A stretch of DNA of 64,000 nucleotides from NCBI RefSeq assembly GCF_017876755.1, contig NZ_JAGIOO010000001.1:8293786-8357785 (forward strand), in the 5' to 3' direction. Source of the stretch: Crossiella equi (GTDB taxonomy: Bacteria > Actinomycetota > Actinomycetes > Mycobacteriales > Pseudonocardiaceae). Position 1 is the stretch's first letter; the number at the start of each line of letters is the position of its first letter. The notes beneath the pieces are model-generated. The model did no database searches, was not told the origin of the DNA, and worked only from the letters and a program-made list of their open reading frames with translations. The position numbers and the translations under genes were made by a program. Of this stretch, positions 20,842-33,099 are shown piece by piece.

Positions 20842-21357
20842 TTAGGATCGGGCCCCGCCACACGCTGCCCGACACGGCGTCCCGGGGGCCGGGGGAGCCC
20901 CGCCGTCCTCCGACCGGGGGAAGGCGGACCCGGCACCGGGTGTTCCTGTGTGGACGGTGTGCCAGGAGGCCACCTCGGCCAGCGGGGCGGACACCGAGTG
21001 GTTGAGCAGGTCGGCCACCGCGTGGATGGCCCGCAGCGTCGGCACCTCGGCACCGGCCAGCCGCCGCTCGATGGAGATCTCCGGGTGGGAGCCGAGCCGC
21101 CGGGCGTCGCGGTGGCGGCAGATCGCGGCCATCGCGGACCGGGTCAGCGCGGAGATCGGGTTGAACGCGATGTTGACCATGAGCTTGAGCCAGACGTCCT
21201 TGCGGAGGTCGGGCTCCACCGGGCACTCCAGGCCGCCCGCCACCACCGCGGCCAGCTGGCGGCCGCGCGCGATGGGATGAACCTGCGCTCCGGCGCGGTG
21301 CAGGGCGGCCCCCACGTACGCGCCGATGGCGCCGGCACCAAGAACAGCGATTCGCAC
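20842..21357 (-). pseudogene. 2-dehydropantoate 2-reductase (PanE/ApbA) remnant with internal deletions
   Basis: An open frame of 171 codons, GTG start with AGGAGAG upstream. Residues 1-40 are the Rossmann start of ketopantoate reductases (VRIAVLGAGAIGAYVGAALH). The frame then jumps to the C-terminal helical domain (DVWLKLMVNIAFNPISALT), skipping about 130 residues. A second gap removes the segment between ERRLAGAE and VPTLRAIHAVADLL. The family is about 300 aa. Both losses keep the frame open, so a short product could be made, but the NADPH and substrate sites are incomplete. An operator-like motif lies 36 bp upstream. Confidence 0.7.
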
Positions 21358-21392
21358 AGCACTCTCCTGTTCTTGTGCCGACAACCCATTCA

Positions 21393-21410
21393 GCATACAG
21401 TATGGAGTAA
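21393..21410. promoter_or_regulatory. candidate GntR operator, copy 1
   Basis: GCATACAGTATGGAGTAA agrees at 14 of 18 positions with the near-perfect copy at 32384. It lies between the divergent panE and selB remnants. Proposed target of the GntR regulator at 30008-30760. Confidence 0.5.
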
Positions 21411-21462
21411 CCCGGTCAGCGGGAGTGCGCGGCGCCGTCCGCGTGGGTGAGGAGGCGTTGCG

Positions 21463-21891
21463 GTGCCTGCTGGTTCTCCGTACCCGCCCCCGCCGATGCG
21501 TGTCGTCGCCACCGCGGGCGGAGCCGGTCACGGCAAGTCGACGCTGGTGCGCGCACTCACCGGCCGGGACAGGTGGGCGAAGCTGCCGTCCGGACACGTG
21601 CTGGCCCTGCTGGACAACTCCGGCGAGGGGATCGTGCCCGGGCTGGCCACCGCGGTCCGCACGGGGCTGCTGCTCCGCCTGGCCGACGGCGTCTACTTGG
21701 CCCCGGATGCGGTGGAACGGGCGGAAAGCGTGTTGCGCGCGCTCCCGCAGCCGTTCACCGTGGCCGCGGCCCGCACCGCGCTGCGCACCTCGCGCCGGGT
21801 CGCGGTACCGCTGCTGGAACTCATGGACACCCGGGGCATCACGGCCAGGCTGCCCGACAGCCGGCGCCGGATTCGCCCGGAACACGACTGA
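21463..21891 (+). pseudogene. selenocysteine elongation factor SelB remnant (P-loop fused to C-terminal winged helix)
   Basis: 142 codons, GTG start behind GAGGAGG. The first part (MRVVATAGGAGHGKSTLVRALTG) is the start of SelB, where the family has AGHVDHGKST. From about residue 45 it reads as the extreme C-terminal winged-helix of SelB (LADGVYLAPDAVERAESVLRALPQPF, SRRVAVPLLELMDTRG). Roughly 400 residues containing the rest of the GTPase and the middle domains are missing. It cannot act as an elongation factor. The intact ribosome site and open frame leave the chance of a short expressed protein. Confidence 0.65.
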
Positions 21892-21976
21892 CGAAGGCAT
21901 ACGTCGGTACGAATCGCGACACGATCGGCGGTATCCCGCTGGACATCGCCCGCCGACCGGAGTATCACTGGACCAC

Positions 21977-21994
21977 GCATACGGTATGCAGTAT
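21977..21994. promoter_or_regulatory. candidate GntR operator, copy 2 (oxalate operon)
   Basis: GCATACGGTATGCAGTAT matches 15 of 18 positions of the copy at 32384. It lies 119 bp upstream of the TPP decarboxylase start, where a repressor could block the promoter of the catabolic operon. Confidence 0.6.
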
Positions 21995-22112
21995 GGGGAG
22001 CGAGTGGTGTGCGGTTCGCACGATCGTCGGCCTTCACCAGACTCACCACCAACGAATGCCCGGTTCCGCCCAGAGCTGGCGGCCGGGCGCGACGTGAGGA
22101 GATGACGCACCT

Positions 22113-23840
22113 ATGGCGCAGACCGCCCAGGCACTGCCCCAGAGCGCCAGCACCCCGGTCGAGGTAACCGAGAGCAAGACCATCTCGGGCGGCCACCTGG
22201 TGGCAAAGGCTCTCAAAGCCGAAGGCGTCGACGTGGTGTTCACTCTGTGTGGCGGCCACATCATCGACATCTACGACGGCTGCGCGGACGAGGGCATCGA
22301 GCTCATCGACGTCCGCCACGAGCAGGTCGCCGCGCACGCCGCCGACGGCTACGCCCGCATCACCGGCAAGCCCGGCTGTGCGGTCGTCACCGCCGGACCG
22401 GGCACCACCGACGCGGTGACCGGCGTGGCCAACGCGCTGCGCGCGGAGAGCCCGATGCTGCTGATCGGCGGGCAGGGCGCGCTGACCCAGCACAAGATGG
22501 GCTCGCTGCAGGACCTGCCGCACGTGGACATGATGACCCCGATCACCAAGTTCGCGGCCACCGTGCCGGACACCGCGCGCGCCGCGGACATGGTCTCCAT
22601 GGCCTTCCGCGAGTGCTACGCGGGCGCCCCGGGCCCGGCCTTCCTGGAGATCCCCCGCGACGTGCTCGACGCCTCGGTCCCGGTGGAGAAGGCCCGCATT
22701 CCCCGGGAAGGCGCCTACCGCGCGTCCACCCGCTCGCTCGGTGACCCGGCCGACGTCGAGAGGCTGGCCGACCTGCTGGTGAAGTCGGAGAAGCCGTGCA
22801 TCCTGCTCGGCAGCCAGGTCTGGACCACGCGGGGCACCGACGCCGCGCTGGACCTGGTGCGGGGCCTCAACATCCCGGCCTACATGAACGGCGCGGGCCG
22901 CGGCACCCTGCCGCCCGGCGACCCGCACCACTACCAGCTCTCCCGCCGCTACGCCTTCACCAACGCGGATCTGATCATCATCGTGGGCACGCCCTTCGAC
23001 TTCCGTATGGGCTACGGCAAGCGCCTGTCCGCCGCCGCCACCGTGGTGCAGATCGACCTGGACTACCGCACGGTCGGCAAGAACCGCGACGTCGACCTGG
23101 GTATCGTCGGCGACGCCGGTCTGGTGCTCGCCCAGGTCTTCGCCGCCACCACGGGCCGCACCAACAACGGCGCGGCCAACCGCAAGGCGTGGCTGGAGGA
23201 GCTGCGCGCGGTGGAGGAGCAGTCCCTGGCCAAGCGGATGCCGCGCCAGCTGTCCACCGCCAACCCGATCGACCCGTACCGCCTGGTGCACGAGATCAAC
23301 GAGTTCCTCACCGAGGATTCGATCTACATCGGCGACGGCGGGGACATCGTCACCTTCTCCGGTCAGGTCGTACAGCCCAAGTCCCCCGGCCACTGGATGG
23401 ACCCGGGCCCACTGGGCACCCTCGGCGTCGGCATCCCGTTCGTGCTGGCCGCCAAGTACGCCCGCCCGGACAAGGAGGTCGTCGCGCTCTTCGGGGACGG
23501 TGCCTTCTCCCTGACCGGCTGGGACTTCGAGACCCTGGTCCGCTACAACCTGCCATTCGTGGGCATCGTGGGCAACAACTCCTCGATGAACCAGATCCGC
23601 TACGGCCAGGCCGCCAAGTACGGGCAGGACCGCGCCCGCCTGGGCAACACCCTGGGCGATGTCAAGTACGACCAGTTCGCCAAGATGCTCGGCGGCTACG
23701 GCGAGGAGGTCCGCGACCCCGCCGACATCCGCCCCGCGCTGGAGCGCGCCCGCTCCTCGGGCCTGCCCTCGCTGGTCAACGTGTGGGTCGACCCCGACGT
23801 GTACGCGCCGGGCACGATGAACCAGACCATGTACAAGTAG
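22113..23840 (+). CDS. TPP-dependent decarboxylase, probable oxalyl-CoA decarboxylase by context
   Basis: 575 aa with all three TPP-enzyme domains. The activating Glu is at residue 70 (DVRHEQVAAHAADGYA), which rules out glyoxylate carboligase, where it is Val. The TPP/Mg motif is GDG 461-463 to NN 488-489. Overall it resembles the actinobacterial IlvG-like acetolactate-synthase group more than Oxalobacter Oxc, and the Oxc active-site Tyr in QGDYEEMD is replaced (MGSLQDLPHVD). Immediately followed (12 bp) by formyl-CoA:oxalate CoA-transferase, so decarboxylation of oxalyl-CoA to formyl-CoA is the best inference. 2-hydroxyacyl-CoA lyase or acetolactate synthase activity are alternatives. Confidence 0.75.
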   Translation: MAQTAQALPQSASTPVEVTESKTISGGHLVAKALKAEGVDVVFTLCGGHIIDIYDGCADEGIELIDVRHEQVAAHAADGYARITGKPGCAVVTAGPGTTDAVTGVANALRAESPMLLIGGQGALTQHKMGSLQDLPHVDMMTPITKFAATVPDTARAADMVSMAFRECYAGAPGPAFLEIPRDVLDASVPVEKARIPREGAYRASTRSLGDPADVERLADLLVKSEKPCILLGSQVWTTRGTDAALDLVRGLNIPAYMNGAGRGTLPPGDPHHYQLSRRYAFTNADLIIIVGTPFDFRMGYGKRLSAAATVVQIDLDYRTVGKNRDVDLGIVGDAGLVLAQVFAATTGRTNNGAANRKAWLEELRAVEEQSLAKRMPRQLSTANPIDPYRLVHEINEFLTEDSIYIGDGGDIVTFSGQVVQPKSPGHWMDPGPLGTLGVGIPFVLAAKYARPDKEVVALFGDGAFSLTGWDFETLVRYNLPFVGIVGNNSSMNQIRYGQAAKYGQDRARLGNTLGDVKYDQFAKMLGGYGEEVRDPADIRPALERARSSGLPSLVNVWVDPDVYAPGTMNQTMYK

Positions 23841-23852
23841 GGGGAAACCACC

Positions 23853-25082
23853 ATGGCACAGGCACTTGACGGTGTTCGCGTCCTGGACATGACCCACGTG
23901 CAGTCCGGTCCCTCGGCCACCCAGATCCTGGCCTGGCTCGGCGCCGACGTGGTCAAGCTGGAGGCACCCACCGGCGACATCACCCGCAAGCAGCTCCGCG
24001 ACCTCCCCGAGGTCGACAGCCTCTACTTCACGATGCTCAACTGCAACAAGCGCAGCATCACGCTGAACATGAAGTCCGGGGCGGGCAAGGAGCTGTTCAC
24101 CAAGCTCGTGTCCGATGTGGACATCCTGGTGGAGAACTTCGGTCCGGGCGCGGTGGACCGGATGGGCTTCACCTGGGACCGCCTCCAGCAGCTCAACCCG
24201 AAGCTCATCTACGCCTCCATCAAGGGTTTCGGCGACGGGCCCTACACCCACTACAAGGCCTACGAGGTCGTCGCCCAGGCCATGGGCGGCTCGATGGCCA
24301 CCACCGGTTTCGAGGACGGCCCGCCGCTGGCCACCGGCGCCCAGATCGGTGACTCCGGCACCGGCATCCACACCGTGGCCGGGATCCTGGCCGCGCTGTA
24401 CCAGCGGGAGCACACCGGGCGCGGGCAGCGGGTCACCGTGGCCATGCAGCACGCGGTGCTCAACCTGTGCCGGGTCAAGCTGCGCGACCAGCAGCGCCTG
24501 ACCCACGGCCCGCTCGCCGAGTACCCGAACAAGGAGTTCGGCCAGGAGGTGCCCCGCTCGGGCAACGCCTCCGGCGGCGGCCAGCCCGGCTGGGCGGTCA
24601 AGTGCGCGCCCGGCGGGCCCAACGACTACGTCTACGTGATCGTGCAGCCCGTCGGCTGGGCCCCCATCGCCAAGCTGATCGGACGGCCCGAGCTGGCCGA
24701 GGACCCCGAGTGGGCCACCCCCGAGGCGCGGCTGCCCAAGCTGGACAAGATGTTCCAGCTCATCGAGGAGTGGACGGTCCACCACACCAAGCGGGAGGTC
24801 CTGGCGATGCTCAACGCCGAGAACGTCCCGTGCGGGCCCATCCTGTCCACCCAGGAGCTCATCGACGACGAGTCCCTGGTGGCCAACGAGATGGTCGTCG
24901 AGGTGGACCACCCCGAACGCGGCCCGTTCAAGACCGTGGGCATGCCGCTGAAGCTGTCGGACTCCCCGGCCAAGGTCGAGCGCTCGCCGCTGCTCGGCGA
25001 GCACAACGAGGACGTCTACGTCAAGCAGCTCGGGCTCACCGGCACCGAGCTGGCACAACTGCGGGCGAACGGAGTGATCTGA
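23853..25082 (+). CDS. frc: formyl-CoA:oxalate CoA-transferase
   Basis: 409 aa, class III CoA-transferase (CAIB/BAIF). It follows Oxalobacter Frc closely: [49 protein letters not shown]-like text, the catalytic Asp at residue 167 (GDSGTGIH), [20 protein letters not shown] and the glycine loop [11 protein letters not shown]. The enzyme moves CoA from formyl-CoA to oxalate, forming oxalyl-CoA for decarboxylation, as an interlocked dimer in the cytoplasm. RBS GGGGAAA. Operon position 2, five bases before the ligase gene. This is the firmest functional anchor of the cluster. Confidence 0.88.
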
Positions 25083-25086
25083 GGCG

Positions 25087-27225
25087 ATGTCCTCCTACGA
25101 CAAGGCCGTGGTGCGCGAGGTCCTGGACAAGGCCCGCGCGCAGGGACGTGAGGCGCTGTCCGCGCCCGAGGGCAAGCTGCTCTGCGACGCCTACGGCATC
25201 CCCACCCCGGGCGAGGGACTGGCCACCACGGCCGAGGACGCGGCCGGTGTGGCCGCCGCGATCGGCTTCCCGGTGGTCATGAAGATCGTCTCGCCGGACA
25301 TCCTGCACAAGACCGAGGCGGGCGGGGTCGTCGTCGGGGTCGCCGACGAGAGCGCGGCCCACGAGGCGTTCGAGACGATCGTGGCCAACGCCAAGGCCTA
25401 CCAGGCCGACGCCGAGATCACCGGCGTGCAGGTGCAGGCGATGGTCGGCGGTGGCCAGGAGGTCATCATCGGCGCCACCACCGACGACTCCTTCGGCAAG
25501 ATCGTGGTGTTCGGCCTCGGCGGTGTGCTGGTGGAGGTCCTCAAGGACGTCACCTTCCGCCTGGCCCCGCTCGAACCCGCCGAGGCGCGGGTGATGGTCA
25601 CCGACATCAAGGCCGTGGAGATCCTGCACGGGGTGCGCGGGGCCGAGCCGGTCGACCTGGACGCGCTGGCCGACGTGGTCCGGCGCCTGGGCGACCTGGT
25701 CACCGACTTCCCGGAGATCCGCGAGCTCGACCTCAACCCGGTGTTCGCCTCCGCCGACGGCGCGATCGCCGCGGACGTGCGGGTGCTTGTGCAGACCGGT
25801 GAGCTCACCGACAGGCACGTGTACTCCGACGAGGACATCATCCGGGTGATGAACCGGCTGATGAAGCCCAGGAACGTCGCCGTGATCGGGGCCTCCGCCG
25901 AGGAGGGCAAGATCGGCAACTCGGTGCTGAGGAACCTGGTCAACGGCGGTTACCAGGGCGGCATCCACCCGATCAACCCCAAGGCGGACGAGATCCTGGG
26001 CCACAAGGCGTTCAAGGCCATCGGCGACGTGCCGGTGGACGTGGACGTGGCGGTGTTCGCCATCCCGGCCAAGTTCGTGGCCGGTGCCCTGGAGGAGTGC
26101 GGCCGCAAGGGCGTGCCCGCCGCGGTGCTCATCCCCTCCGGCTTCGCCGAGACCGGCAACCAGGAGCTCCAGGACGAGGTCGTGGCCATCGCCCGGAAGT
26201 ACGGCATCCGCCTGCTCGGGCCCAACATCTACGGCTACTACTACACCCCCGAGAACCTGTGCGCGACCTTCTGCACCCCCTACGACGTGCGGGGCGGGGT
26301 GGCGCTGACCTCGCAGTCCGGCGGCATCGGCATGGCCATCCTGGGCTTCTCCCGCACCACCAAGATGGGTGTCTCCGCAATCGTCGGTCTGGGCAACAAG
26401 TCCGACGTGGACGAGGACGACCTGCTCACCTTCTTCGAGCAGGACGACAACACCCAGTGCGTGGCGATGCACCTGGAGGACCTGAAGAACGGCCGCGCGT
26501 TTGTGCACGCGGCCAAGCGGATGACCAAGAAGAAGCCGGTCGTCGTGCTCAAGGCGGGCCGTACCTCGGCGGGGGCGAAGGCCGCCAGTTCGCACACCGG
26601 TGCCCTGGCCGGTGACGACAAGGTCTACGACGACATCCTGCGCCAGGCCGGTGTGGTGCGGGCACCCGGCCTCAACGAGATGCTCGAGTACGCCCGGGGC
26701 CTGCCGCTGCTGCCCACCCCGAAGGGCGAGAACGTCGTCATCATCACCGGCGCGGGCGGTTCGGGCGTGCTGCTCTCCGACGCCTGCGTGGACAACGGCC
26801 TGTCCCTGATGGAGATCCCGGACGACCTGGACGCGGCCTTCCGGGAGTTCATCCCGCCCTTCGGCGCGGCGGGCAACCCGATCGACATCACCGGCGGCGA
26901 ACCGCCGTCCACCTACGAGGCCACCATCCGGCTCGGCTTGGAGGACCCCCGGATCCACGCCCTCATCCTCGGCTACTGGCACACCATCGTCACCCCGCCG
27001 ATGGTCTTCGCCGAGGTGACCGCCCGGGTGGTCGAACAGGCCCGCGCGAAGGGCATCGACAAGCCGGTCGTGGCCTCGCTGGCGGGCGACGTGGAGGTCG
27101 AGCGGGCCAGTGGATACCTGTTCGACCACCGTGTTGTCGCCTATCCGTACACCACCGAGCTCCCGGTCGCGGTGCTGGGAGCCAAGTACCGCTGGGCGCG
27201 CTCGGCGGGACTGATCGAACGGTAG
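25087..27225 (+). CDS. ADP-forming acyl-CoA ligase (acetate-CoA ligase family), ATP-grasp first
   Basis: 712 aa. Domain order: ATP-grasp (about 1-235; FPVVMKIVSPDILHKTEAGGVVVGV), CoA-binding Rossmann domain (about 255-350; VAVIGASAEEGKIGNSVLRNL), then succinyl-CoA-synthetase-like domains with LTSQSGGIG and the phosphohistidine loop SSHTGALAGDD. Many relatives have the ATP-grasp last. NDP-forming ligases run acyl-CoA + ADP + Pi to acid + CoA + ATP, or the reverse. In this operon it could prime the cycle by making oxalyl-CoA or recover ATP from formyl-CoA. Substrate is inferred from context only. Confidence 0.85.
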   Translation: MSSYDKAVVREVLDKARAQGREALSAPEGKLLCDAYGIPTPGEGLATTAEDAAGVAAAIGFPVVMKIVSPDILHKTEAGGVVVGVADESAAHEAFETIVANAKAYQADAEITGVQVQAMVGGGQEVIIGATTDDSFGKIVVFGLGGVLVEVLKDVTFRLAPLEPAEARVMVTDIKAVEILHGVRGAEPVDLDALADVVRRLGDLVTDFPEIRELDLNPVFASADGAIAADVRVLVQTGELTDRHVYSDEDIIRVMNRLMKPRNVAVIGASAEEGKIGNSVLRNLVNGGYQGGIHPINPKADEILGHKAFKAIGDVPVDVDVAVFAIPAKFVAGALEECGRKGVPAAVLIPSGFAETGNQELQDEVVAIARKYGIRLLGPNIYGYYYTPENLCATFCTPYDVRGGVALTSQSGGIGMAILGFSRTTKMGVSAIVGLGNKSDVDEDDLLTFFEQDDNTQCVAMHLEDLKNGRAFVHAAKRMTKKKPVVVLKAGRTSAGAKAASSHTGALAGDDKVYDDILRQAGVVRAPGLNEMLEYARGLPLLPTPKGENVVIITGAGGSGVLLSDACVDNGLSLMEIPDDLDAAFREFIPPFGAAGNPIDITGGEPPSTYEATIRLGLEDPRIHALILGYWHTIVTPPMVFAEVTARVVEQARAKGIDKPVVASLAGDVEVERASGYLFDHRVVAYPYTTELPVAVLGAKYRWARSAGLIER

Positions 27226-27342: not shown

Positions 27343-28860
27343 ATGGATTCTTCGAACACCCCGAGCGCGGGGTCGTCGGCGAGCGGGGTCAGCGATCCCG
27401 TGGCCGGTGGTCAGGAACGCGTGTGGAGAGCCGGTCGGCTCGATCCCATGCCCATCCGGAAGCTGCCCGACGCGCCGCCGTCGGTGCACCTCATCGGTCC
27501 GACGGTGTTCCTGGTGGCACTGGGCGTCGGCATGGGCGAGTCCTACATGTGGCCGCGCCTGGTGCTGATCTTCGGACCGGAGATCCGGTGGCTGTTCCTC
27601 ATCGGCGTCACCTTGCAGGCGGTGGTGATGCTGGAGATGGCCCGCTACGCGATGGCCACCGGCGAGAGCATCTTCGCCGGGGCGGCGCGGGTCTTCAAAC
27701 CCGTCATGTGGTTCTTCTTCGTCGTGGCGATCGCGGTCTACATCTGGCCGGGCCACCTGTCGGCGGGCATGTCGGCGCTGGAGAAGATCACCGGGATTCC
27801 CTGGCAGGCCAGCGCGATCGCCGGGCTCGTGCTCGTGGGCGTGGTCTTCAGCCTGGCCAAGGTGATCTACAACCTGCTGGAGAACGTGCTGTCCATCCTG
27901 ATCGGCCTGCTGGTCGTGGGCACCGCGGTGGCGGCGGCGTTCGTGGGCACGTGGCAGGACCTGGCCACCACCATCACCGGTATGTTCAGCTTCGGCTACC
28001 TGCCCAGCGAGGTGTTCACCCCGACCTGGTTCCCGATCATCGTGGGCGCCATCGCCTTCGCCGGGCCCTCGGGCATGCAGCAGATGTGGTACACGCTGCA
28101 CCTGCGCGACTCCGGGGCCGGGATGGGCGCGCACATCCCGCAGATCAAGGGCCTGCGCAGCGCCGAGTCCGGTGAGGCGGAGCAGATGCCCGCCCGCGGC
28201 TTCATGTTCGACACCTCCGACCCGGAGGAGATGGCCAAGTGGAAGGGCTGGCGGCGCTGGGTCACCTTCGACGCGCTGCTGCTGTTCTGGGGCGTCACCA
28301 TGCTGGTCACCATCTCCTTCACCGTGCTCGCGCAGACCGCGGCCCGGCAGAACCCCGACGTGAAGACGCTGATCGCCGCCGGGGACCGCACCGCGGCGCT
28401 GGACGCGATGTCGGATGCCTTCGCCACGCTCGGCGGTCCCGCGCTCGGCACGGTGTTCTTCGGCTTCATCGCGCTCATCGGCCTGAACGCGACCCTGGGC
28501 CTGTTCGACTCCTTCTCCCGGGGCCAGGCCGACATGACCTACTTCTTCGTGCCCGGCGCCAAGAAGATCGGCATGTCCCGGCTGTACGCGGGCTTCCTGT
28601 GGGGCCTGATCCTGTTCGGCATCGGCATCCTGCTCTTCGGACCGGCCGACGGCCCGGCGGAGATCCTGGACATCCTGGCGTTCCTGTCCTCCTTCGCGAT
28701 GGGCGCCTACTGCGTGGTGCTGCTGCTGGTGAACAACCTGATGCTGCCCAAACCGATCCGGCCGAAGTGGTGGTCCAACGCCATCATCGGCTTCGGCGCG
28801 GTGTTCTACCTGGGCGCGTTGTTCTACTCCCTGTTCGCCTACGGCGTGGCATTGGACTGA
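27343..28860 (+). CDS. Nramp-fold transporter lacking the metal-binding motifs
   Basis: 505 aa, about eleven membrane segments with the Nramp (SLC11, LeuT-fold) pattern. In the first helix the metal-binding DPGN of true Nramps is replaced by GMGESYMW (residues 63-70). In helix 6 the MPH motif is replaced by a GPSGMQQMW segment. Both substitutions remove the ligands for Mn2+/Fe2+. It lies in the oxalate operon and overlaps the next membrane gene by one base, so uptake of an organic acid or a metal-carboxylate complex is more likely than free metal transport. That substrate is an inference; the family itself is clear. Confidence 0.75.
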   Translation: MDSSNTPSAGSSASGVSDPVAGGQERVWRAGRLDPMPIRKLPDAPPSVHLIGPTVFLVALGVGMGESYMWPRLVLIFGPEIRWLFLIGVTLQAVVMLEMARYAMATGESIFAGAARVFKPVMWFFFVVAIAVYIWPGHLSAGMSALEKITGIPWQASAIAGLVLVGVVFSLAKVIYNLLENVLSILIGLLVVGTAVAAAFVGTWQDLATTITGMFSFGYLPSEVFTPTWFPIIVGAIAFAGPSGMQQMWYTLHLRDSGAGMGAHIPQIKGLRSAESGEAEQMPARGFMFDTSDPEEMAKWKGWRRWVTFDALLLFWGVTMLVTISFTVLAQTAARQNPDVKTLIAAGDRTAALDAMSDAFATLGGPALGTVFFGFIALIGLNATLGLFDSFSRGQADMTYFFVPGAKKIGMSRLYAGFLWGLILFGIGILLFGPADGPAEILDILAFLSSFAMGAYCVVLLLVNNLMLPKPIRPKWWSNAIIGFGAVFYLGALFYSLFAYGVALD

Positions 28861-29411
28861 TGGCGATGAGCGAACCGCTCGAACGGCCGAGCCCGCTCGC
28901 GCTCGCCCAGGTGGCCCTGCCGGGTGCCGTGGTCGGGCTGCTGGCCGGGACGGTGGCCTTCGGCCTGGCGCTGCTCGTGGGGCAGCCCGGTTCCTGGGCA
29001 CTGGCCACCGCTCTGGGCTTCGGCCTCCCGCTGGCGCTGTTCGGGGCGCTGTACGGGCTGCTGGCGGCCACCGGCCGCATCCGCCTGGGCACCTTCGCCC
29101 CGGCCGCCCTGTTCTGGCTCGTCGGCTTCCCGCTGGCCAGGCTCATCCAGGAGGTCGTGGTCGGGCTGACCGCGGTCGGCGCGTTCCGGCTGCCCCCGGA
29201 CCTGCTCGGGTTCCTGGCCTACCAGGGCATCGTCAGCGCCGGGTTCGCGATCGGCTTCCTCTGGCTGCACGAGCGCCTCGCACCCCAGGCGTTCCGCCAC
29301 TTCGCCCCCGGAAACCCGCTGGCCGCCTCGGCCTTCCGGCGCTACGCCACGCACGCCGCGACCGTCTGGGCCCAGAAGAGCCGGGCCCGTGCCGCCAGGG
29401 GAGCCCGATGA
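28860..29411 (+). CDS. small multi-pass membrane protein of the oxalate operon
   Basis: 183 aa; the ATG overlaps the transporter stop by one base (TGATG). About five hydrophobic segments (PGAVVGLLAGTVAFGLALLVG, LATALGFGLPLALFGALYGLLAAT, LFWLVGFPLARLIQEVVVGL, GFLAYQGIVSAGFAIGFLWL) and a basic C-terminal tail. No family recognised. Tight coupling suggests an accessory subunit of the Nramp-fold carrier or a membrane protein of the same uptake route. Confidence 0.7.
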   Translation: MAMSEPLERPSPLALAQVALPGAVVGLLAGTVAFGLALLVGQPGSWALATALGFGLPLALFGALYGLLAATGRIRLGTFAPAALFWLVGFPLARLIQEVVVGLTAVGAFRLPPDLLGFLAYQGIVSAGFAIGFLWLHERLAPQAFRHFAPGNPLAASAFRRYATHAATVWAQKSRARAARGAR

Positions 29412-29620
29412 CCTGGCTGCCGCACGCGGTCAGGCGCTCCGTGCCCGCCAGCGATGGGTACACGGGCGCCAGTGCGGGGACCTCGGCTGTCACCGTGGTG
29501 GCGAGTGTGGTCAAATCAGGGAGGACCGGGCGCGAGGCCGCCGTGGCGGCCCGGCAGCCCGTTCGGTCGGCCCATGCCTCGTCGAGCGCGGCAACGCTCG
29601 ACGAGACCGGGACCGGTTGA
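29408..29620 (+). CDS. possible small protein coupled to the membrane gene
   Basis: 70 aa, ATG overlapping the previous stop in ATGA. Ser/Ala/Thr-rich, no recognised domain, and codon bias weaker than in the neighbours. The coupling is the only positive sign; it may be chance. Confidence 0.28.
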   Translation: MTWLPHAVRRSVPASDGYTGASAGTSAVTVVASVVKSGRTGREAAVAARQPVRSAHASSSAATLDETGTG

Positions 29621-29700
29621 GCGATGCACTGGATCCTTCTGCCCGTCGGGCCCAGTTGAGCTCAGTGGTTCGTGCGGTTTCCCGGCCGGTGTGACCGGGG

Positions 29701-29895
29701 TCAGCTGGAGACGGCCTGGCCCTGGTCACGCTTCGGCGTACCCGCCCGGCGTCGCAGGTAGTTCTCCACAGTCGCGGTCGGGTTCTTCTCCGCCTCGGCC
29801 ATGGCCAGGGCCAGTCCCAGCCCCATCGGCCGGTCACCGCGGGCACCCAGCGGCTTCTCCGCCAGGGCGCGCAGCAGGTCCTTGAACTTGCGCAC
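29701..29895 (-). CDS. small basic hypothetical protein
   Basis: 64 aa from the GTG at 29893-29895, preceded by a strong AAGGAGG. Sequence begins VRKFKDLLRALAEKPLGARG, is helical and positively charged at both ends, and ends RRRAGTPKRDQGQAVSS. No family recognised. It sits alone between the oxalate operon (convergent) and the GntR gene on the same strand. The ribosome site and codon bias support translation. Confidence 0.6.
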   Translation of the reverse strand: MRKFKDLLRALAEKPLGARGDRPMGLGLALAMAEAEKNPTATVENYLRRRAGTPKRDQGQAVSS

Positions 29896-30007
29896 GACAA
29901 ACACCTCCTTCCATCCAGGACTACCCTCGCGGCCGCATCGCCATTCGGGAGTGAATGTGAACGGGAATGCACTCTCCCGTTCCAATACCCGGTCTGCGCC
30001 GACCGGA

Positions 30008-30760
30008 TCAGACCTTCGGTGCGGTGCGCGGCGCGGTGCGGCGGCGCCTGCGCAGCGGCAGCTCCGGGGCCGGTGCGGCGTCCGCGACGCTCTGCCGGTT
30101 CTCCAGGTAGGACTGCCGGGTGCGGTCGGTGTGCTCCCGCATGATCTCCGCCGCCTTGTCCGCGTCACCAGCGGCGATGGCGGTGATGAGCTTGCGGTGC
30201 TCCTTCCACGACTGCTTGCCGCGTTGCCGGGCCACCGGGGTGTGGAACCAGCGCACCCGGCGGTCGACCTGCGAGGCGAGCTCCAGCAGCACCTTGTTGC
30301 CGGACAGCTCGGTCACGCAGCGGTGCAGGGCGGCGTTGGCGGCCACCGCGCCGTCCACGTCGTCGGCGGCCACCGCGGCCTCGCCCTGCTGGCACAGCTC
30401 GCGCAGGCGGGCCAGGCCGTCCTTGTCGGTGTGCAGGGCGGCCAGCCGGGCCGACTCGGTCTCCAGGAGGGTGCGCACGGCCAGCAGCTGGTCGGCCTCG
30501 GCCTCGGTCGGTACGTGCACGAACGCGCCGTAGCCGGGTACCAGGTCGACCCAGCCCTCGTTGGACAGCCACTGGAGGGCCTCACGCACCGGCTGCCGGG
30601 AGACGCCGAGCATCTCCGCCAGCTCGCCCTCGACCAGGTGCTGCCCGGGGGCGAGGTTGCCGGTGATGATCTCCTCGAGCAGGGCCTCGAAGACCCGCTC
30701 CCGCAGGGGGACCGGCCGGTCGATCTTGCGTGCCGACGTGCCCTGCGACAGCTCCGACAT
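30008..30760 (-). CDS. GntR-family regulator, FadR/FCD subfamily
   Basis: 250 aa. The winged helix (LRERVFEALLEEIITGNLAPGQHLVEGELAEMLGVSRQPVREALQWL) spans about 18-65. The all-helical FCD effector domain follows (LLAVRTLLETESARLAA, AALHRCVTELSGNKVLLEL, WKEHRKLITAIAAGDADKAAEIMREHTDRT) with the Asp/His pattern that binds metal and small carboxylates. The tail is Arg-rich. FCD regulators usually sense organic acids, fitting the adjacent oxalate genes. An operator-like site lies about 75 bp upstream of its start, suggesting autoregulation, and the same motif recurs at three more promoters in the island. Confidence 0.9.
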   Translation of the reverse strand: MSELSQGTSARKIDRPVPLRERVFEALLEEIITGNLAPGQHLVEGELAEMLGVSRQPVREALQWLSNEGWVDLVPGYGAFVHVPTEAEADQLLAVRTLLETESARLAALHTDKDGLARLRELCQQGEAAVAADDVDGAVAANAALHRCVTELSGNKVLLELASQVDRRVRWFHTPVARQRGKQSWKEHRKLITAIAAGDADKAAEIMREHTDRTRQSYLENRQSVADAAPAPELPLRRRRRTAPRTAPKV

Positions 30761-31000: not shown

Positions 31001-32335
31001 TCACCGGACACGCTGCGTTGTCCAGGGCGGCACCATTCGGCCGGGCTGGCGCAGGCCCCGGCTCAGTCCGGCCGAGACCAGGGCGAGCAGGCTCGTGACC
31101 AGGAACAACACCGGATAACCCCAGGTCGGGGCGAGGGTGGCGCCCACCCCGATGCCGACCAGCCCGCCGACGGCCTTCGCGCTGTAGACCAGCGCGTGGA
31201 TCTCGGCGTGTCGCGTGTCCCCGAAGTAGTCGCGCACCACGCTGGCCACCAGCGGGTAACAGGCCCCGCCCGCCCCGGCCAGCACCGCGCCCGCCAGCAG
31301 CGGTGCCGCGTTGGCCGAGCCGCCGCCGACCGCCAGGCACAGCTGGGACAGCGCCAGCACGGTCAGCGCCGCGCCGAGTGTCCTCGTGCGACCGATCCGC
31401 TCGGAGACCCTGAGCACCACCGCGCGCGCCGCGCCGTTGGCCGCCACGAGCAGGACGGCCGCGGTGGTCAGCACGGGCACGCCCAGGCCCAGGTCCCGGG
31501 CGAAGGGGACGAAGGTGGCGACGGTGAACAGGGTGACCGCGCTCGCGCAGCACAGCACGGCGGCCAGCAGCGGCGCCCCGGCGCGCACGGCCTGGCCGGG
31601 GGAGTGGTCCCGGACGGCGGGCAGCGCGCCCCGGCTGCGCCGCAGCGCCCAGACCCGGGGGTCCACGTGCGGCGGCCACCAGCGGGGCGGCGGGTCGCGC
31701 AGGAGCAGACCGGCCGCGATGACCAGGCAGGCGCTGAGCACCGCGGTCGAGTCCAGCAGCACGCGCACGGTGTCCGGGGTGGCCATCGGTACCGCGAGCG
31801 CGGTGAAGGGCACCGCGCCCCAGGCGAAGGCGCCGGTGGCCAGGCTGACCCGCACCGCCGAGCGGTCCGGGAACCACTTCGCCGCGGTCGAGGTGGCCAC
31901 CGCGTAGACCAGGCCCGCGCCCGTGCCGCCCAGCACGGAGAAACCGAGCAGGGCACCCAGGTAACCCGGTGTCCTGCCCAGAGCGGCCGGGGCCAGCAGG
32001 CAGCAGAACCCGCCCAGGACCACGAGGGGCACCGGCCCGGCCGTGCCGCGTTCGCGCAGCCGTGCCACCGGCAGGCCGACCAGGGCCTGCGCGGCCGTCC
32101 ACACCGCGAGCAGCCACAGCGTGGCCGTGCCGGACCAGCCGTGCAGGTCGGACAGGGAAGGCACGAGGGCGCCGAAACCGTACTGGAGGACCCCGGCGGC
32201 GGCCATGGCCACCGCGGCGAACGCCAGCTGGGCGCCCCTCGGGTGGCCGGTGAGCAGTTCCGCCGACGGGCCGACCCGGTAGGCGCGGCCGTAGCAGTCG
32301 TGGAGCTGGTGGGACGCGGGCGGTGTGCTGCCCAT
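31001..32335 (-). CDS. MFS transporter, OFA-like (oxalate/formate antiporter type)
   Basis: 444 aa, ATG preceded by AGGAGG. Twelve membrane segments. The N-terminal DCYGRAYRVGPS stretch is reminiscent of actinobacterial OFA carriers, and the helix 4-5 region reads GTGAGLVYAVATSTAAKWFPDR, a typical OFA pattern. OFA members exchange oxalate for formate. With Frc and the decarboxylase making formate from oxalate, an oxalate2-/formate- exchanger would also generate a proton gradient. Specificity is inferred. An almost perfect operator palindrome lies 51 bp upstream. Confidence 0.78.
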   Translation of the reverse strand: MGSTPPASHQLHDCYGRAYRVGPSAELLTGHPRGAQLAFAAVAMAAAGVLQYGFGALVPSLSDLHGWSGTATLWLLAVWTAAQALVGLPVARLRERGTAGPVPLVVLGGFCCLLAPAALGRTPGYLGALLGFSVLGGTGAGLVYAVATSTAAKWFPDRSAVRVSLATGAFAWGAVPFTALAVPMATPDTVRVLLDSTAVLSACLVIAAGLLLRDPPPRWWPPHVDPRVWALRRSRGALPAVRDHSPGQAVRAGAPLLAAVLCCASAVTLFTVATFVPFARDLGLGVPVLTTAAVLLVAANGAARAVVLRVSERIGRTRTLGAALTVLALSQLCLAVGGGSANAAPLLAGAVLAGAGGACYPLVASVVRDYFGDTRHAEIHALVYSAKAVGGLVGIGVGATLAPTWGYPVLFLVTSLLALVSAGLSRGLRQPGRMVPPWTTQRVR

Positions 32336-32383
32336 CCTGCCCTCCTGTGGTCAGATGCCGGAGAACCCTGGTGCCCAGTATCG

Positions 32384-32400
32384 CATACTGTATACAGTAG
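32384..32400. promoter_or_regulatory. candidate GntR operator, copy 4 (best palindrome)
   Basis: Contains the perfect 14-bp palindrome TACTGTATACAGTA at 32386-32399, in the divergent region between the MFS gene and the hyi remnant. The TGTATACA core is common among FCD-type GntR operators. It is the reference against which the other three sites were aligned. Confidence 0.7.
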
Positions 32401-32404
32401 TCAA

Positions 32405-32878
32405 CGTGGATCTGTACGAGTACCAGGCGAGGTGGCCCTGGCCAACCTCACCCACGCCGCCCGTGCCGCGCAGGCCATCGGCGCCACGGTCGTGCTGGAG
32501 GCGCTGAACTCCCACGAGAACCCGGCCTACCCGATCCTGTCCCTGGCCTCGGCCTGCCACGTGCTGGACCCGGTGCGCGCCAGCGGTGTGCACAACGTCG
32601 CCTTCCTGGCCGACCTTTACCACCTGGGCCGCATGGGCGAGGACCTCCTGGCGCAGGTGCGGCGGCACGGCGTGGAGTTCGGGCACGTGCAGATCGCGGA
32701 CACCCCCGGCCGCGGCCAGCCCGGCACCGGCGAGATCGACTTCGGGGAGGTGCTCACCCGGCTGGTCCGGTCCGGGTACGCGGGGCACATCGGGCTGGAG
32801 TACCGGCCCGTCGGTCCCAGCGCGGCCAGCTTCGGCTGGCTGCCCGCCCTTCGAGCCAGCGTGGAGGCAGCCGCGTGA
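32405..32878 (+). pseudogene. hydroxypyruvate isomerase (Hyi) remnant, N-terminal half missing
   Basis: About 155 codons read as the C-terminal half of the TIM-barrel isomerase: ANLTHAARAAQAIGATVVLEALNS, NVAFLADLYHLGRMGEDL, FGHVQIADTPGRGQPGTGEIDF, GHIGLEYRPVG, where the Glu and His residues are the metal ligands. The family is about 260 aa; the first 100 or so residues are gone and replaced by the operator region. No good start remains. It couples through GTGA to a glxR remnant, the usual glyoxylate-pathway order. Confidence 0.7.
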
Positions 32879-33099
32879 CCACGATCGGGTTCCTCGGCCT
32901 GGGCACCATGGGCGCGCCCATGGCGGTCAACCTGGTGCGCGCCGGACACCGGGTGACCGGCTACGACCTCGCCGGACCAGGCCTGGCCCGGCTGCGCGAG
33001 GCGGGCGGGGCCACCGCCGCACTGGTCGCGGCGGCACGGCCTTCCGCGGGCAGCTGGGCCTGGAACGCCATTTCCGGGACGCCCGGGTGGTCCGGGTGA
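32875..33099 (+). pseudogene. 2-hydroxy-3-oxopropionate reductase (GlxR/GarR) N-terminal remnant
   Basis: 74 codons from a GTG overlapping the hyi stop. Residues 1-45 are the NAD(P)-binding start of tartronate-semialdehyde reductases (TTIGFLGLGTMGAPMAVNLVRAGHRVTGYD). After about residue 48 the text is unrelated to the family and ends early; intact enzymes are about 295 aa. No catalytic Lys or substrate domain remains. With hyi it records a lost glyoxylate-salvage operon. Confidence 0.7.

Follow-up and report, generated by a model that had tools for sequence, protein, structure and literature searches.

Organization of the frc operon

The window, a 64,000-nucleotide stretch of Crossiella equi DNA taken as a whole, contains on one strand the genes for a TPP-dependent enzyme, a formyl-CoA:oxalate CoA-transferase (FRC), an ADP-forming acyl-CoA ligase, an Nramp-fold carrier and a small membrane protein, separated by 12, 4, 117 and 5 bp, respectively (Table 1). 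The carrier is encoded by a single unbroken frame of 505 amino acids. Its neighbors had initially been placed three bases to one base away; in fact, the ligase gene ends at 27225, 117 bp before the carrier start at 27343, and the ATG of the downstream small gene (28866) lies 5 bp past the carrier stop. The MFS carrier encoded outside the operon is a distant relative of oxalate/formate and lactate MFS carriers.

Table 1. Features of the window and the evidence for their assignment
Feature	Position (nt)	Strand	Evidence
First operon gene, TPP-dependent enzyme (oxalyl-CoA decarboxylase/2-hydroxyacyl-CoA lyase group)	22113..23840	+	Pfam TPP_enzyme N/M/C
frc, formyl-CoA:oxalate CoA-transferase	23853..25082	+	TIGR03253, 660.9 bits (cut-off 504.2)
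ADP-forming acyl-CoA ligase	25087..27225	+	Pfam ATP-grasp_5, CoA_binding_2, Ligase_CoA_2; PDB 8wzu, 465 bits
Nramp-fold carrier, proposed oxalate importer	27343..28860	+	NF037982, AF2, Foldseek to DraNramp, operon linkage
Helix-1 G63-M64-G65-E66 replacing DPGN	27529..27540	+	Alignment with canonical Nramps
Arg72, helix 1b, clade-invariant	27556..27558	+	27/27 clade members versus 26 distant relatives
Helix-6 G241-PSGMQQ-247, MQQ replacing MPH	28063..28083	+	Alignment; helix break 239-245 in the model
Small membrane partner protein of the carrier, ~4 predicted TM helices	28866..29411	+	Adjoins the carrier in all surveyed loci
terC remnant with an internal deletion between start-codon region and 3' end	29408..29620	+	Local alignment to L053
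GntR/FCD regulator facing the operon	30008..30760	-	Pfam FCD and GntR; kept in most loci
MFS carrier outside the operon	31001..32335	-	SfMCT 122.8 bits, TIGR00890 112.5 bits, both below cut-off

By sequence, the frc product is firmly assigned as FRC, with a score above the curated equivalog cut-off. The ADP-forming ligase may be an oxalate- or formate-CoA ligase. The best PDB match of the TPP-dependent enzyme was a 2-hydroxyacyl-CoA lyase (279 bits, versus 207 bits for oxalyl-CoA decarboxylase (OXC), 2q27); its score against TIGR03254 (oxalyl-CoA decarboxylase) was 237.9 bits at a cut-off of 739.4, and Tyr120-Glu121 of OXC are replaced by Leu-Gln. By contrast, the OXC of locus L172 has Tyr-Glu and passes the TIGR03254 cut-off. 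Judged from these sequence features, the window enzyme falls outside the canonical oxalyl-CoA decarboxylases, and the designation oxalate operon therefore rests on FRC and the comparative context rather than on the TPP-dependent enzyme. Thus, the carboxylate operon proposed in the initial annotation holds with respect to frc-type oxalate catabolism but not with respect to a canonical decarboxylase. The window enzyme, which adjoins frc, represents a distinct actinobacterial type that is highly conserved and carries Leu-Gln in place of the catalytic Tyr-Glu of OXC.

Family assignment and fold of the carrier

The carrier matched the NCBIfam model NF037982 (Nramp_1, Nramp family divalent metal transporter) with 452.6 bits at a cut-off of 50. 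It gave no match to Pfam PF01566 (Nramp), of which the whole genome contains no member, and a sequence search of the PDB retrieved nothing. An AF2 model built from 55 sequences (pLDDT 86.0, pTM 0.86) showed a confident Nramp/LeuT fold, with helix 1 broken at residues 62-63 and helix 6 at residues 239-245; an earlier prediction from four sequences (pLDDT 39) was set aside. In Foldseek, the top ranks were taken by DraNramp structures (E = 1.8e-9, TM normalized by target (TMt) up to 0.84), and EleNRMT (7qia, TMt 0.73) and a YcsG model (9a52, 13% identity, TMt 0.73) also ranked high. The Nramp fold noticed in the initial annotation was thus corroborated by structure prediction.

With canonical Nramp/MntH (Slc11) proteins such as DraNramp, the carrier shares the overall fold, the broken helices 1 and 6 and the helix-6 Met. 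It differs from them in the lack of PF01566, DPGN and MPH, and it is only 15-19% identical to the members from its phylum. A score above the NF037982 cut-off, an Nramp fold and the absence of DPGN/MPH together place it among the Nramp-related proteins. The Mg2+ transporter EleNRMT is likewise Nramp-related and without DPGN/MPH. The signature of this NRMT group, DxxG in helix 1 and TxxA/T in helix 6 (PMC8806188), is absent from the carrier, which has Gly63 instead of Asp at the first position.

The position of the Nramp metal site and clade-specific residues

When the carrier was aligned with canonical Nramps from its own phylum, the D-P-G-N column corresponded to G63-M64-G65-E66, as had been read from the sequence initially, and the M-P-H column to M245-Q246-Q247. 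Accordingly, the D, N, P and H of the metal site are exchanged; the presumed change of the helix-6 ligands holds for MPH to MQQ, except that the Met itself is kept. E66, Q246 and Q247 were shared by each of the 27 clade members in the comparison, so that the GMGE/MQQ pattern is not due to chance. A Glu at position 66 was also found in 26/26 distant relatives. Every clade member has Arg72, Arg82, His138, Glu147 and Gln395, whereas most distant relatives carry other residues at these positions, most often Tyr, Leu, Phe or Ala at position 72. Arg72 is a candidate carboxylate ligand.

The view that the metal ligands have been lost is probably wrong. Nramp-related proteins without DPGN/MPH form a paraphyletic group basal to the canonical Nramps (PMC12873925). 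With the motif-less proteins at the base of the family in published phylogenies, parsimony therefore favors a later gain of the metal motif (PMC12873925), which is more likely than its loss. The plain reading of lost ligands was dropped, as published rooted trees point the opposite way.

Linkage of the carrier to frc and to a small membrane protein

A profile built from four sequences was used to scan the contigs of 84,980 species and yielded 219 relatives, of which the best 80 were surveyed. Linkage of these GMGE-type proteins to frc was almost complete: the order TPP-dependent enzyme-frc-ligase-carrier-small protein on one strand was found in 79 of the best 80 loci, from approximately 20 genera, with a median ligase-carrier gap of 103 bp. 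The single exception was a second copy in Kibdelosporangium persicum, where the carrier and the small protein are encoded alone. These counts do not represent independent events, because the loci come from related actinomycetes. The oxalate-linked carriers formed a single group in an unrooted tree (support 100/100). An OxlT-like MFS gene was absent within ~10 kb in 16/62 loci with full flanks; many loci, including the window, do have an MFS gene nearby.

The small protein adjoins the carrier in all of the best 80 actinomycete orthologs and in 7/7 Rubrobacteraceae copies. It matched no Pfam or NCBIfam family; W85, F89, P90, R93, F117, G127, G131, F132 and E137 are invariant. This linkage strongly indicates that it is an obligate partner of the carrier.

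Replacement of the carrier by an MFS protein in frc loci

Because generic frc paralogs occur everywhere across the order, counting CaiB-type transferases of any kind alongside the carrier is uninformative; the comparison was limited to 75-79% identical frc orthologs. In a sample of 150 genomes from the order of the window, nine had such an frc and no carrier of the clade. An MFS gene directly follows the ligase gene in the same direction in six of these nine loci (L161-L166), and a seventh (L167) agrees with this arrangement; of the remaining two, one gave no ligase match (L168) and one is broken up (L169). Five of the MFS proteins were tested, and TIGR00890 (oxalate/formate antiport) was their best or second-best match, with scores of 182-192 bits, which lie below the strict cut-off. 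The small protein was present in none of the nine loci. Thus, an MFS protein of the oxalate/formate antiporter family fills the slot of the carrier in at least six of nine frc loci without the Nramp-fold protein.

Linkage to oxalate oxidoreductase in Rubrobacteraceae

In Rubrobacteraceae, a 63-65% identical carrier is encoded together with the small protein behind three oxalate oxidoreductase (OOR)-like genes. The best PDB relatives of the three gene products were the alpha, beta and delta subunits of Moorella OOR (E = 1e-104, 9e-91 and 1e-18), with pyruvate:ferredoxin oxidoreductase clearly weaker for the first two of these subunits (1e-62 and 1e-57); the NCBIfam OOR models were the best for the Rubrobacter genes, yet scores stayed below the curated cut-offs. 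Among 39 genomes, the carrier was found in seven and OOR alpha in eight, with an overlap of 7/7 (Fisher p = 5e-7); in one of the seven (G437), carrier and OOR were found on two different small contigs. OOR is not related to FRC; what connects the two enzymes is oxalate.

The eighth OOR genome (G087) has no carrier; an OxlT-family MFS gene (TIGR00890, 201.9 bits, below cut-off) directly follows OOR. In a comparison with its congener G109, the DNA flanking the cassette on either side was 95-98% identical, and the difference was confined to the cassette itself: carrier-small-YjbE-YjbE versus a single MFS gene in G087. The swapped cassettes of the two congeneric genomes lie at L036 9047-12750 and L185 10553-12938.

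TerC/YjbE genes next to the pair

Among the best 80 of the 219 relatives, a TerC/Alx gene directly follows the small gene in 70 of the 79 actinomycete operons; two such genes were tested and exceeded the TIGR03718 cut-off of 246 bits, with scores of 369 and 386. In 5/7 Rubrobacteraceae loci, the corresponding gene is a YjbE gene (TIGR03717), presumably of the same superfamily. The nine frc stretches of the MFS type lacked any TerC/YjbE gene (Fisher p = 8.5e-8, uncorrected for kinship), as did G087. An Rfam scan of five loci detected no Mn2+ riboswitch.

In the window, a terC remnant follows the small gene (Table 1). Positions 29470-29953 align at 75% with DNA of the Crossiella locus L053 that comprises the 3' end of terC and the region behind it, and the protein tail LDETGTG is common to the remnant and to L053 terC, of which the full gene is a TIGR03718 TerC/Alx member. 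The deletion comprises ~0.9 kb; terC is intact in most sister operons.

Metal-citrate carriers take up the acid together with a metal that is exported afterwards. TerC proteins have been reported as Mn2+ exporters or exoenzyme metallators (PMC13274385, PMC10550928). The TerC/YjbE neighbor suits an uptake of oxalate plus metal followed by metal export, and it also suits plain metal transport. It lends circumstantial support to the metal-oxalate carrier considered in the initial annotation; that a metal travels with oxalate is possible, though we hold this part only tentatively.

Proposed function

Genomic context makes it likely that the carrier and the small protein together import oxalate, with the carrier as the main membrane subunit of a two-protein importer. 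Of the organic-acid or metal-oxalate carrier suggested at the outset, the organic-acid part gained support from the frc linkage in 79/80 loci, the OOR link and the two OxlT-family replacements. The Nramp-fold protein would form an alternating-access carrier, with the four-TM protein as an obligate partner for assembly, stability or gating. Imported oxalate would be activated by FRC, perhaps also by the ADP-forming ligase, and the TPP-dependent enzyme would cleave the activated oxalate to CO2 and formyl-CoA/formate. At the site where Asp, Asn, Met and His coordinate Mn2+ in metal Nramps, the clade has an open Gly-rich turn with Glu66, Met245 and Gln246/247; Arg72, which is clade-specific, could bind the two carboxylates of oxalate together with Arg393. 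Oxalate as substrate, the inward direction and the mode of coupling are what we infer from the gene neighborhoods; an oxalate/formate exchange would be compatible with oxalate import.

Oxalate may enter together with a metal ion, which the TerC/YjbE protein encoded beside the pair in most relatives may then export. A more far-reaching version, which we regard as speculative and rather doubtful, is a metal-oxalate importer that binds an oxalate-divalent cation complex near the ancestral site, with the small four-TM protein as essential subunit and TerC/YjbE expelling the metal; carboxylates, perhaps together with a cation, would have been the cargo of the ancestral Nramp-related group, from which dedicated metal transport would have evolved.

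OxlT-type carriers occupy the same operon slot in sister genomes, and the same job is proposed for the carrier, which may work like OxlT without being OxlT: the MFS fold is unrelated to Nramp/LeuT, and neither a small partner nor a TerC neighbor was found with OxlT-type genes. A closer parallel is given by PxpT, an Nramp-family protein of Corynebacterium glutamicum required for growth on 5-oxoproline; Nramp-related YcsG/PxpT are genetically tied to 5-oxoproline uptake (PMC13274462). This role is contested by a report of YcsG (also MntG) as a Mn2+ importer that raises cellular Mn2+ (PMC10448178). The YcsG group lacks the canonical metal motif (PMC12873925). PxpT/YcsG and the carrier are alike in being Nramp-family proteins whose genes lie in an operon that degrades a small carboxylic acid and has a GntR regulator (PMC13274462). 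The operon of PxpT (436 amino acids) is pxpABC, similarity between the carrier and YcsG is remote (13% identity to 9a52), and neither a small partner nor a TerC neighbor has been described for PxpT/YcsG. With this precedent, carboxylate transport on an Nramp fold is not wholly new, and the new substrate class claimed for the fold in the initial annotation needs to be qualified by the contested link to 5-oxoproline. Apart from NRMT and YcsG, most Nramp-related groups are uncharacterized (PMC12873925).

Relatives with ~25-30% identity adjoin genes for lactate utilization, lactate-racemase-type, UxaA, PdxA, FMN-dehydrogenase, mandelate-racemase-type and lactate-permease proteins, which is an anecdotal observation. 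Distant Nramp-related genes annotated as divalent metal transporters on a Haloarcula plasmid (L182) and a Rubrobacter indicoceani plasmid (L184) have genes for L-lactate permease, FAD/Fe-S dehydrogenase, LutABC-like, UxaA and PdxA proteins as neighbors. Small downstream genes in Haloarcula were considered as relatives of the small partner and judged different both by eye and by hydropathy.

Alternative functions

Points against oxalate import are the MFS and OOR scores below the cut-offs, the nearby MFS genes and the Mn2+ report for YcsG (PMC10448178). A divalent-metal (Mn2+ or Mg2+) transporter that keeps the metal balance during oxalate use would fit the NCBIfam name, the Nramp fold and the adjoining TerC/Alx or YjbE metal-homeostasis genes; oxalate chelates metals, the TPP-dependent enzyme needs Mg2+, and Mg2+ or Mn2+ transport has been reported for NRMT and MntG/YcsG (PMC8806188, PMC10448178). 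We nevertheless consider it unlikely: DPGN and MPH are replaced, the DxxG of NRMT is absent, OxlT-type organic-acid carriers take the slot in two unrelated enzyme contexts, and the distant relatives lie in lactate, sugar-acid and hydroxy-acid gene clusters.

The TPP-dependent enzyme lacks Tyr120-Glu121 of OXC and is nearer to 2-hydroxyacyl-CoA lyases, and therefore the pathway could start from another acid. The carrier would then move formate (export), glyoxylate or a 2-hydroxy acid that the ligase activates before the lyase-type enzyme cleaves it, in line with the hydroxy-acid genes around distant relatives and with a second TPP carboligase and hyi near many loci, apparently a glyoxylate gcl-hyi-glxR cluster. 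Another starting acid, however, does not explain the OOR loci; FRC scores above the formyl-CoA:oxalate transferase cut-off and has oxalate in common with OOR, and the replacement carriers are nearest to the oxalate/formate family, all of which renders this option rather improbable. Plant EIN2, an Nramp-fold relative, acts in signaling, and carrier activity is so far a prediction, but a membrane sensor or a passenger gene linked by chance is very improbable given the linkage kept over ~20 genera and two enzyme systems, the conserved residues and the clean swap with another carrier.

OxlT is hardly described in actinobacterial oxalate use (PMC10192776), and none of the papers searched joined Nramp, oxalate and formyl-CoA. 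If oxalate import by the carrier is correct, it would supply the uptake step of oxalate use in many soil actinobacteria, would make carboxylate transport on the Nramp fold more than a single oddity and would bear on the origin of metal selectivity in the family. Nramp-related proteins are numerous and named metal transporters in databases, so oxalate import would also flag a widespread misannotation; the clade offers a concrete, testable substrate, and the two nearly identical Rubrobacteraceae genomes represent a natural swap experiment.

Shortened genes around the operon

In comparison with L053, genes flanking the operon are also shortened (window 21496-21888, 32357-33000 and 20842-22110 (-)). 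The remaining parts correspond to residues 13-65 and 501-583 of selB, only 120-294 of hyi and only 1-42 of glxR; the window no longer contains gcl, and inspection by eye suggests an internal deletion in a 2-dehydropantoate-reductase-like frame. The shortening reflects either real decay or an assembly error and does not extend to the core operon. In relatives, the region upstream of the operon contains selB, a formate dehydrogenase alpha subunit gene and a MoeA-like gene (L053 2793-4544; L061 718-2448 and 3571-4809), a set fitting for the disposal of oxalate-derived formate.
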